A stretch of 64,000 bases of DNA, taken from Silvibacterium acidisoli (GTDB taxonomy: Bacteria; Acidobacteriota; Terriglobia; Terriglobales; Acidobacteriaceae). The position numbers and the translations under genes were made by a program. Below are positions 46,772 to 51,025 of the stretch, piece after piece (within the stretch, counting starts at the first letter, position 1; every line of letters begins with the position of its first letter). Below the pieces are notes generated by a model. It saw only the letters and a list, made by a program, of their open reading frames with translations, did not search any database and was not told the origin of the DNA. Location of the stretch: assembly GCA_022870745.1 (NCBI GenBank), contig CP085323.1, forward strand, positions 1,922,001 through 1,986,000, given 5' to 3'.

Positions 46772-47059
46772 CTATGGTAACTGGCGCGGGGAAAAAGACC
46801 GGTCATGACCATGATCTCGGGCCGGAACCGGGTCAAAGCCGCCTCGCTGAAAGGGATGGCAGCGCAGAATCCGCCGGAGGGCCATCCAGGTCCCTGCCAC
46901 GATGCCATGCTCAGCAACAGCGATCGCCGCGTACTCCGAGCACGTCGGCTGAAAACGGCATCCACCGGCGGAGCCGGGCATCGCATGAAGCAACGGCGAA
47001 AACGCGTACTTGTAGACGCCCAGCAGCGCGGCCACATAGCGGGTACGCAGGTTGCTCAT
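46772..47059 (-). CDS. yidD: membrane protein insertion efficiency factor YidD
   Basis: 95 residues. Amphipathic protein that helps YidC. The signature [19 protein letters not shown] with its paired Cys, and [16 protein letters not shown], identify the family. Its ATG overlaps the rnpA stop codon in an ATGA arrangement, so translation is coupled. A 51-bp gap leads to yidC. Confidence 0.95.
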
Positions 47060-47454
47060 TGCGCGGTTCCCTTCGGCGGCTGCGGGGCGATGCGGCTCTT
47101 TTCTGCCTGGGATTGAATTTTGGAGAAGATGACGCCGATCTCGCTCGTCAGCTTTGCGTATTCCATCTCCGCGACAGACTTGCGCGGATGCAGCACGACA
47201 TCGATGGAAACCGGCAGCCGGTCAAGATTGGCGCGGACGGCCTCGCGCAGGCGGCGCTTGATGCGATTGCGCTCGACAGCCTTGCCCAGGACACGCCCGG
47301 CAGTCAGCCCAACGCGCGGCCCTTCAGGCAGCAGCTCCTCTTCCGCACGCAGGCGGAAGAAGTAGCTCATCGACTGCGAAAAATGCTTCCGGCTCGCCTT
47401 GTAGACGCGCTGGTAGTCGGCATGTTTGCGCAACCGTGTATCCGCAGAAGACAT
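47056..47454 (-). CDS. rnpA: ribonuclease P protein component
   Basis: About 132 residues; binds RNase P RNA to mature tRNA 5' ends. The RNR motif is [16 protein letters not shown] (about 65-80), with [14 protein letters not shown] at the N-terminus and [17 protein letters not shown] later. ATG 47454 gives the usual length; ATG 47475 and the longer frame are possible, but add sequence unlike the family. Normally it is next to rpmH; here a toxin-antitoxin pair lies between them. It overlaps yidD by the ATGA junction. Confidence 0.93.
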
Positions 47455-47522
47455 CGACCTATTGTCTCGCGCCATCGCTGAGCGATCGTAAGAAATCTCG
47501 CAGGAAAAGGTAAGCATCGCGG

Positions 47523-47843
47523 CTATTGTGGCGGAACCATCGCCAGCTGGCGACCATGTCGAACGCGGAGAATCACTACTGTTTCGTTGTCTGGGATGGT
47601 AAACAGAATGCGATACACGTGCGGTGCGCGGCCATAAAGAAGCTGACGGATTTCGGCTTCGAAGTCCTTGTCTTCACGAGCCAGTGGACAGCGAAATGGA
47701 AGCGAAGCCAGAGAAGTGATCGACTTCTCGAGGCCATCCAGCCACTTCAAGCCAGCCTCGCCAACTTCCTGTGTCAGATACCAATCCGTTATCTGCTCCA
47801 GATCACGATCAGCCTGCTCGGTCCGAAGAACCCTAAAGCCCAT
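47523..47843 (-). CDS. RelE/ParE-superfamily toxin (type II TA), first module
   Basis: 106 residues. The ParE/RelE fold is indicated by FRVLRTEQADRDLEQITDWY, LKWLDGLEKSITSLASLP, a charged EDKDFEAEIRQLLYGR, HVYRILFTIPDNETVVILRV and the terminal HGRQ. It overlaps the upstream antitoxin by 11 bp, as paired TA genes do. Target (gyrase or ribosome/mRNA) is not decidable from sequence. Inserted between rpmH and rnpA. Confidence 0.85.
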   Translation of the reverse strand: MGFRVLRTEQADRDLEQITDWYLTQEVGEAGLKWLDGLEKSITSLASLPFRCPLAREDKDFEAEIRQLLYGRAPHVYRILFTIPDNETVVILRVRHGRQLAMVPPQ

Positions 47844-48069
47844 GCTTTGCGCGAATCTTTCGGAATGTTTCTTCGATACCAGCGACCCGGCCGGCAGTCA
47901 TATCGTCCAGCCCTTCTCGAAGCGCGGCAACAGATTGCTGATGCTCCAGCCTCTCCGACTCGAGTGCTTCTCCGAGCAGGTCATCGACTGCACTCGCTAC
48001 ATCCAGGTCGTGCCTGCGAGCGTACTCGCTAAGCTGAGCCTGGCGTTCCGGAGAGAGGTGAATCTGCAT
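47833..48069 (-). CDS. antitoxin of the first TA module
   Basis: 78 residues. The N-terminal MQIHLSPERQAQLSEYARRH and AVDDLLGEALESERLE suggest a ribbon-helix-helix-like DNA-binding part. The C-terminal helix (SVAALREGLDDMTAGRVAGI, EETFRKIRAKHGL) would wrap the toxin, as in ParD-like antitoxins. A promoter ends six bases before the ATG, so the message may be leaderless. The assignment relies on the overlapping RelE/ParE gene downstream. Confidence 0.8.
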   Translation of the reverse strand: MQIHLSPERQAQLSEYARRHDLDVASAVDDLLGEALESERLEHQQSVAALREGLDDMTAGRVAGIEETFRKIRAKHGL

Positions 48070-48075
48070 GCTTTC

Positions 48076-48104
48076 AGCCTAGAAACGGGGGTACATCGTG
48101 TCAA
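48076..48104 (-). promoter_or_regulatory. promoter of the first TA module
   Basis: On the minus strand: TTGACA (48099-48104, perfect -35), a 17-bp spacer and TAGGCT (48076-48081). The -10 ends six bases before the antitoxin ATG at 48069, which predicts a leaderless or nearly leaderless transcript. The module can thus be expressed independently of rpmH. Confidence 0.6.
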
Positions 48105-48197: not shown

Positions 48198-48353
48198 CTA
48201 GTCGCGGTAACCGGCGCTGACCGAGACGCGCTTGCGGCCACGGGCGCGGCGGCGCGAAAGGACTGCGGCTCCGCTCTTGGTCTTCATGCGGGCACGGAAT
48301 CCGTGGACCTTGGAACGGCGGCGGCGGTTGGGTTGAAATGTGCGCTTGGGCAT
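48198..48353 (-). CDS. rpmH: 50S ribosomal protein L34
   Basis: 51 residues read from the minus strand: [20 protein letters not shown], then [20 protein letters not shown] and [11 protein letters not shown]. This is L34 in full: very basic, with the conserved RTFQPN, HGFRARM and GGxVLxxRRxKGR-like segments. AGGAG lies about 9 bases before the ATG. A good promoter lies about 80 bp upstream and the gene diverges from dnaA, the classic origin-proximal arrangement. Confidence 0.97.
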
Positions 48354-50272: not shown

Positions 50273-50620
50273 CTACTCTCCTTCGAGATTCCCTAGCAGT
50301 TCTTCGATGTCGCGGGCGCCATGCAGAACGTGCACGATCAGCACGAGGTTCTCTTCACGTATGTGCCGATAGAAGATCAGGTGTTGCGGGAAGCCTGGCA
50401 CGGGAATTCTTCGCATCGCCTGTAGTTGCGGATGGGTGAAGTGACATCGGGCACCGCGATCCGGCATCGTCAGCAACGACCGAATCGCCGCATGTACCGC
50501 TTCCTCCCACTTGTGTGCAATGGAATCGCTGCGTCCGTCGTAGAAATCGGCTTGCTCGACGATAGCCGACGCAGCGGCGGTGGTAATCTGCAGGGTTTTG
50601 CGAATAGCTCGTGCGGTCAT
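50273..50620 (-). CDS. RelE/ParE-superfamily toxin, second module
   Basis: 115 residues with the ParE/RelE pattern: AAASAIVEQADFYDGR, AHKWEEAVHAAIRSLLTMPD, RRIPVPGFPQHLIFYRHI and VLIVHVLHGARDIEELL. It lies on the same strand as the ParD-like antitoxin gene but 135 bp downstream, an unusually wide gap for a TA pair. It converges with dnaA across its terminator. Target not known. Confidence 0.83.
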   Translation of the reverse strand: MTARAIRKTLQITTAAASAIVEQADFYDGRSDSIAHKWEEAVHAAIRSLLTMPDRGARCHFTHPQLQAMRRIPVPGFPQHLIFYRHIREENLVLIVHVLHGARDIEELLGNLEGE

Positions 50621-50755
50621 CGACTCTCAGAGAGAGAGTAACGTGAGGAACGCGAGTTCGCGAGGCACGATTGGCACGTTACTGATGTTTTAAGCGTCCG
50701 AGAATGCGTCCTCACGCATAGCCTGGCGGCTCTGCATGAGGCGCATCGGTTGCTC

Positions 50756-51019
50756 TCAGACACTCTTGTGGCGGCTGTTCAGCTTCTTTCGAAGAACCTT
50801 CAAAAGCGATGGATCATTCAGCTCACCTTCGCTCAACGAAATATCTCCGGATTGCAGCGCATTCAATAGGGTGCCCTCAAGACGCTGCACGTTGATTTGC
50901 TTGTCGCGCCGGACAAGTTCCCGCACATACTCGCTGGGCGTGCCGTAATCACCCGACGCAACCCTGGATTCGATGTACGCCTTGAGCTGATCGGGCAGCG
51001 AAATATTCAAGGAAGTCAT
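50756..51019 (-). CDS. ParD-like (CC2985-type) antitoxin, second module
   Basis: 87 residues from ATG 51019, which has AAGG seven bases upstream; an in-frame ATG at 51025 is equally possible and would be leaderless. The ribbon-helix-helix start (TSLNISLPDQLKAYIESRV), SGDYGTPSEYVRELVRRDKQ and the C-terminal helix (LLKVLRKKLNSRHKSV) are typical ParD. A 9-bp inverted repeat overlaps its promoter and is the likely autoregulatory operator. Confidence 0.88.
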   Translation of the reverse strand: MTSLNISLPDQLKAYIESRVASGDYGTPSEYVRELVRRDKQINVQRLEGTLLNALQSGDISLSEGELNDPSLLKVLRKKLNSRHKSV

Positions 51020-51025
51020 TGCCAT

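Follow-up and report, generated by a model that had tools for sequence, protein, structure and literature searches.

On the minus strand of the window, by which we mean the whole 64-kb stretch of DNA analysed here, the genes run in the order rpmH, antitoxin, toxin, rnpA, yidD, yidC. The sequence-only reading had placed an overlapping toxin-antitoxin (TA) pair with its own -35 and -10 boxes between rpmH and rnpA, on their strand, and both the pair and the promoter are there: the two open reading frames (ORFs) overlap by 11 nt on the same strand, the downstream one matches a toxin family in Pfam, and an exact two-box site lies upstream of the antitoxin. From this arrangement we infer that antitoxin and toxin are co-transcribed. 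The features of the locus are these:

48198 to 48353, minus strand: rpmH (ribosomal protein L34); PF00468, 68.3 bits, the sole match in the genome
48123 to 48143, minus strand: G+C-rich hairpin after rpmH, GCGGCTC-N7-GAGCCGC, with a 7-bp stem, from a stem search of family loci
48076 to 48104, minus strand: predicted TA promoter TTGACA-N17-TAGGCT, with the -35 at 48099-48104, the -10 at 48076-48081 and 6 nt to the antitoxin ATG
47833 to 48069, minus strand: antitoxin ORF, 78 aa; probable ribbon-helix-helix (RHH) N-terminal domain, C-terminal tail like that of the Phd-type antitoxins of sister toxins
47523 to 47843, minus strand: ParE-type toxin ORF, 106 aa; PF05016 (ParE_toxin), 48.6 bits against a cut-off of 23
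47461 to 47466, minus strand: -10-like element GACAAT before rnpA, 6 nt from the conserved rnpA start and present in TA-less relatives
47056 to 47454, minus strand: rnpA (RNase P protein); PF00825, 88.4 bits, start 47454 picked by conservation
46772 to 47059, minus strand: yidD; PF01809, 87.5 bits
44984 to 46720, minus strand: yidC; PF02096 and PF14849

By sequence and by its predicted fold, the toxin belongs with ParE. Beyond its PF05016 match, which places it in the ParE superfamily, a profile of 20 sequences (the window's own and 19 relatives) finds ParE-type toxins first among solved structures (8c24, 7ycs, 6x0a, 5cw7, 3kxe), and the predicted model (mean pLDDT 87) has solved ParE and ParE-like toxins as its top fold matches, with Z of about 12-13 for the first nine entries. 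NCBIfam held no matching entry for the toxin or for the 78-aa antitoxin, and the PADLOC defence-system search gave no match for four TA proteins. Might the toxin be a RelE-like mRNA interferase instead of a ParE-like gyrase poison? RelE and ParE share one common fold, RelE-named entries also match the model (Z 7.8-10.7), and some sister toxins are paired with Phd/YefM antitoxins; sequence and fold searches alike, however, place ParE and ParE-like toxins above RelE, and we regard an interferase as improbable.

The antitoxin scores above cut-off against no Pfam family, the best matches below it being MatP_C and Antitox_RHH. Its profile matches the RHH antitoxin of the Pseudomonas aeruginosa ParDE module (6xrw_B, E 9.2e-5), below pentatricopeptide and solenoid matches that rank higher on 18-19 residues. 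The model is helical, with a mean pLDDT of 90 but a pTM of 0.56, and the folds closest to it, among them CopG (rmsd 1.1 A over 35-39 columns), Arc, MatP and AmrZ, reach a best E-value of 0.26, which is not significant. An RHH domain at the N-terminus is probable. The other end of the protein bears on a wider family: sister toxins (about 35-44% identity) pair with Phd/YefM-like antitoxins, as Pfam PF02604 confirmed for one of them, and the C-terminal tail EGIRxGxxDxxxGRT...KHG is alike in the RHH-type and Phd/YefM-type antitoxins of related ParE toxins (loci L003-L008 and L009-L031). That similar tails occur across both types suggests, as far as sequence comparison goes, that the DNA-binding half may have been exchanged between antitoxins.

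Third-position GC sets the pair apart from its surroundings, at 0.55 in the toxin and 0.58 in the antitoxin against 0.70-0.79 in rpmH, rnpA, yidD and yidC, a composition that fits acquisition from elsewhere. The same contrast would be seen in an inactive relic, that is, an inserted TA pair that no longer works and is drifting, and such a reading could also draw on the antitoxin, which is just 37-50% identical to its relatives and is without the two or more residues that follow KHG-L at the end of most of them. Both ORFs are intact, however, as is the promoter, and the toxin retains its conserved positions (for example R51, E57, PHVYRI and RHGR), and we therefore hold a relic to be quite unlikely.

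The two-box promoter at the antitoxin is more than chance. It went unlisted in a generic sigma-70 scan because TAGGCT agrees with TATAAT at just three of six positions. Within 864 kb of the same genome (the window and 40 sampled stretches) there are nine exact TTGACA-N16-18-TANNNT sites, and two of the nine are followed at gap 6 by an ATG whose ORF runs to 60 aa or more: the rnpA-side module and a ParE-containing TA locus, L179 (G000:C1:1883680). We took 22 related loci from named genomes and counted the 17 with the same antitoxin type, leaving out five without an antitoxin match. Thirteen of these 17 relatives, all at other loci, have a two-box site (TTGACA-N17-18-TANNNT) within 150 nt upstream of the antitoxin, seven with an exact TTGACA and six with one mismatch, and the remaining four are without it; since several of the relatives are mutually close and some are loci of the family toxin search, the 13 are not independent events and the count overstates the evidence. 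Under the same criteria, the control gave a two-box site at 47 of 8233 ATGs opening at least 60 codons, with three of the 47 at a gap of 6-7, a spacing at which an in-frame start follows the two-box site in five of the 13 relatives. By these sequence comparisons the predicted promoter is part of the module and moved with it.

The antitoxin start codon lies close enough to this promoter that its mRNA is probably leaderless. Such genes are recognised by a TANNNT some 10-12 bp ahead of the start codon, its last T standing 6 nt from the ATG, and TAGGCT-6-ATG here has this arrangement. Across the 864 kb of the same genome, TANNNT before 805 candidate ATGs peaks at gap 6 with 25 cases, no other gap having more than 12, which marks leaderless starts as a real class in this genome. 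A survey table in PMC3160421 gives leaderless genes for three of three Acidobacteria genomes, with a mean of 13.3%. PMC8630535 describes, from experiment, a leaderless regulator gene in the ParE2 locus of E. coli O157, a related case and not evidence for the locus in the window.

How unusual is the place? The sequence-only reading took the rpmH-rnpA junction to be normally tight and interrupted here, and spacing in relatives, the comparison it proposed, bears this out. The 150 family genomes sampled, the window's own among them, gave an rpmH match in 144 cases and an rnpA match in 147, and 141 of them yielded 143 same-strand rpmH-rnpA pairs, with distances taken from HMM match to HMM match; uncounted are G034, with rpmH and rnpA on opposite strands, and four other rpmH rows without an rnpA on the same contig and strand. 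The distance in the window is 776 bp against a median of 143, fourth from the top of the 143 pairs, and 135 of the pairs have a gap below 500 bp. Within the genus, six of the eight other genomes have an rnpA match, and all six have a short gap of 87-204 bp, against 683 in the window.

Besides the window, seven of the 143 pairs have a gap above 500 bp (in G128, G148, G019, G116, G098, G052 and G130). A cupin gene lies in the gap of G128 (Pfam-tested), with a near-identical ORF, by eye, in G148, and a PilZ gene lies between rpmH and rnpA in G130; with such other inserts in the same place, the gap appears to tolerate them. Eight ORFs chosen by eye from the long gaps of G116, G098, G052 and G019 had no Pfam match at E 0.01, nor did a partial ORF from G089 (gap 405 bp), and, judging by the selected ORFs and by a look for PF05016 among the matches listed, none of the other long gaps showed a recognisable TA pair. 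Of the 149 other family genomes, 26 have a toxin homologue (E 1e-5), always on a contig other than that of the paired rpmH and rnpA, and so do two of the eight other genomes of the genus, G152 (57% identity, on a contig other than that of rpmH) and G154 (39%, rnpA not found). With a short gap in the genus mates and no TA pair seen in the other long gaps, the insertion looks recent, an event in the lineage of the host species as far as these sequences tell. An ancient or common arrangement, which the sequence-only reading had named as evidence against itself, can be rejected for the family, the order rpmH-TA-rnpA being recognised in one genome only among the family and genus genomes examined; the same result speaks against its suggestion that the module is hard to lose.

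Both edges of the gap can be followed in relatives. The hairpin stands 3' of rpmH and ahead of the TA promoter; three of six genus mates (G066, G117 and G150) have one with a stem of 8-9 bp at a like place, and stems of at least 7 bp occur in the rpmH-rnpA gap at 20 of 100 evaluable family loci against 4.7 expected. No T-run follows the hairpin, and the RNA of the intergenic stretches does not fold better than shuffled versions of it (z -0.35 and -0.21). The picture is of an insert between the 3' hairpin of rpmH and the start element of rnpA, with both left in place. No flanking direct repeat of the kind left by target-site duplication was recognised at the insert ends. The end of the toxin gene, ACAATAGCCGCGATG (47515-47529, minus strand), resembles the rnpA start element, ACAATAGGTCGATG (47452-47465, minus strand), through chance or as a trace of insertion. 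In G034:C6 (L043 and L044) the usual pair is itself split: a single contig carries both genes, rpmH on one strand and rnpA on the other, at a distance of 56 kb.

Alignment with the empty sites places CGACAATAG (G117 and G141) and GAGACAATAGG (window) directly before the rnpA start. An alignment-free count covered 279 candidate starts at 142 distinct loci. In eight distinct genomes of three genera, NANAAT ends exactly 6 nt short of an in-frame rnpA start, and no other gap from 0 to 39 has more than two cases; five of the eight belong to the genus (the window's own, G066, G117, G141 and G150), two to a second (G033 and G129) and one to a third (G098), and as related genomes are not independent, their number overstates the evidence. 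This upstream comparison took in 120 of 124 further pairs and left out four; two G034 loci yielded no pair. The element has no recognisable -35, and GACAAT does not fit TANNNT. NANAAT shows no gap-6 peak in the sampled stretches of the same genome (two cases at gap 6, eight and six at gaps 7 and 8), and in two of seven genus genomes (G152 and G153) an SD-like sequence stands before rnpA instead. A family-wide search for enriched 7-mers before rnpA was set aside, the top word coming from rpmH itself and GACAATA being confined to the genus and near genera. Sequence evidence of this kind makes it only probable that GACAAT is rnpA's own -10. Since the element lies 3' of the TA pair and is kept in relatives that are without the pair, rnpA probably retains its own transcription start, and the earlier claim that expression of rnpA is tied to the TA genes finds no support in the sequence.

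Gene order by itself would point the other way. In-frame rnpA ATGs lie at 47454 (the conserved one), 47475 and 47517, which puts the possible starts 5-68 nt from the toxin stop, and no terminator was found between toxin and rnpA, so read-through is possible and TA transcripts may well run into rnpA. One could go further and see the module as wired into the operon, with the antitoxin-autoregulated TA promoter supplying much of the rnpA-yidD-yidC mRNA, the RNase P protein following the state of the TA pair and the module hard to lose as a result. The shared strand and short spacing would suit this, as would a TA promoter with a perfect TTGACA next to an rnpA element without a -35. Against it stand the rnpA-proximal element with its exact 6-nt spacing in TA-less relatives, the rnpA genes of the other genomes examined, which have no TA pair before them, and an arrangement present in one genome only, with no sign of long retention. 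We consider such wiring unlikely. Less likely still, to the point of being a long shot, is a version in which RNase P supply would respond to the TA pair: a strong leaderless promoter repressed by the antitoxin would read through the toxin into rnpA, possibly by way of the ATG at 47517, degradation of the antitoxin would raise rnpA along with the toxin, and RNase P would fall if the module were lost. Were this true, the start at 47517, 5 nt past the toxin stop, would give an RnpA with 21 extra residues.

We therefore favour, as a good deal more probable than any of these, a self-contained ParDE-like type II TA cassette of about 0.6 kb, comprising promoter, antitoxin and toxin, that came to lie between rpmH and rnpA in the ancestry of the host species and rides there as a passenger, rnpA being expressed from its own start. 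Under this proposal a cassette with its own promoter would have entered the gap; the TA mRNA would begin at the antitoxin AUG; the antitoxin would use its ribbon-helix-helix domain to bind its own promoter and its C-terminal tail to bind the toxin; freed toxin would act like ParE, as a gyrase poison; and transcription of rnpA would still be driven by its own leaderless -10, a short way past the module, so that the TA pair would ride along without regulating RNase P. The sequence comparisons set out above support such a passenger module.

Known type II modules of the ParDE kind (ParD-ParE, 3kxe; P. aeruginosa ParDE, 6xrw) share with this one a ParE-fold toxin, a small overlapping antitoxin upstream, a probable RHH N-terminus and a promoter of their own, whereas the antitoxin below Pfam cut-offs, the predicted leaderless mRNA and the rpmH-rnpA position set this locus apart from them. 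Also related is a cassette on plasmid NZ_CP030843.1 of Acidisarcina polymorpha (toxin 48.5% and antitoxin 42.3% identical), which, along with 17 loci from metagenome-assembled genomes (L222-L238), has the same pair in the same order and mostly a like two-box promoter; these lie at other genomic places, and rpmH and rnpA were not found in the stretches examined around them. TA pairs inside housekeeping operons are described in PMC7167474 for relA-mazEF-mazG, dinB-yafNO-yafP, Salmonella parDE in relA-mazG, and ccd between folA and apaH. According to the same source, relA-mazG and dinB-yafP are undisturbed operons in TA-less strains and likely functional without the TA pair, and its passages on mazEF and yafNO report no functional link with the neighbouring cistrons. 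The locus in the window resembles these cases in that a TA pair splits genes that form an undisturbed unit in TA-less relatives, and differs from them in its host operon, rpmH-rnpA-yidD-yidC of an acidobacterium, and in the -10-like element that the downstream gene, rnpA, has close to its start. A literature search by titles and abstract openings found no description of a TA pair between rpmH and rnpA. The locus adds another TA pair, of a ParDE-like kind already known, to those within housekeeping operons, here in a host operon that the search did not turn up in this connection; the type of insertion seems ordinary and its place unusual. It is a clean example, and seemingly a young one, of a TA cassette that has moved in among core housekeeping genes while keeping its promoter whole and sparing the element of the next gene. 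Such a case agrees with the idea that TA pairs are mobile passengers which come to rest in gaps that allow it. A further lesson is that arguing for read-through from nothing but gene order can be misleading in genomes with many leaderless starts.

Other TA loci lie nearby. At 50273-51025 of the window, minus strand, just downstream of dnaA, there is a second, unrelated ParD-ParE pair (PF05016, 44.8 bits; ParD TIGR02606, 50.5 bits). No tRNA was found within the window, and on the question of whether the insert lies near oriC, GC skew had no clear switch at dnaA in the window and no simple pattern over the 40 sampled genome stretches. A family-wide TA hotspot downstream of dnaA is not supported: with an HMM from A3 that detects eight of eight test ParE proteins, none of 92 ORFs of 60-170 aa in the 3' flanks of 30 dnaA loci matched, against one of 97 at 30 recA loci, the window, G129 and G152 lying outside the 30 dnaA loci and the flanks including short ones (24 nt and 1017 nt at one dnaA locus each, 2 nt at one recA locus). 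A second HMM with all eight test proteins added, the recA-flank match included, led to the same outcome. Among single dnaA 3' gaps, that of the genus mate G152 (L252) holds an Unstab_antitox gene with a ParE-like partner below the Pfam cut-off, that of G129 from another genus (L244) an RHH and ParE pair, and that of G150 a 451-aa gene, trehalase-like by eye; those of G033 (about 60 bp) and G141 (about 130 bp) are nearly empty. All three ParE_toxin matches of the 5.36-Mb genome fall within 89 kb (G000:C1:1883680-1972590, taking in L179 and the window), where three random places would lie so close with a chance of about 8e-4, a post hoc figure. At L179, the third ParE locus, a small upstream gene stands behind a leaderless two-box site of like kind, TTGACA-17-TACGCT-6-ATG, although its antitoxin is quite unlike that of the rnpA-side module.
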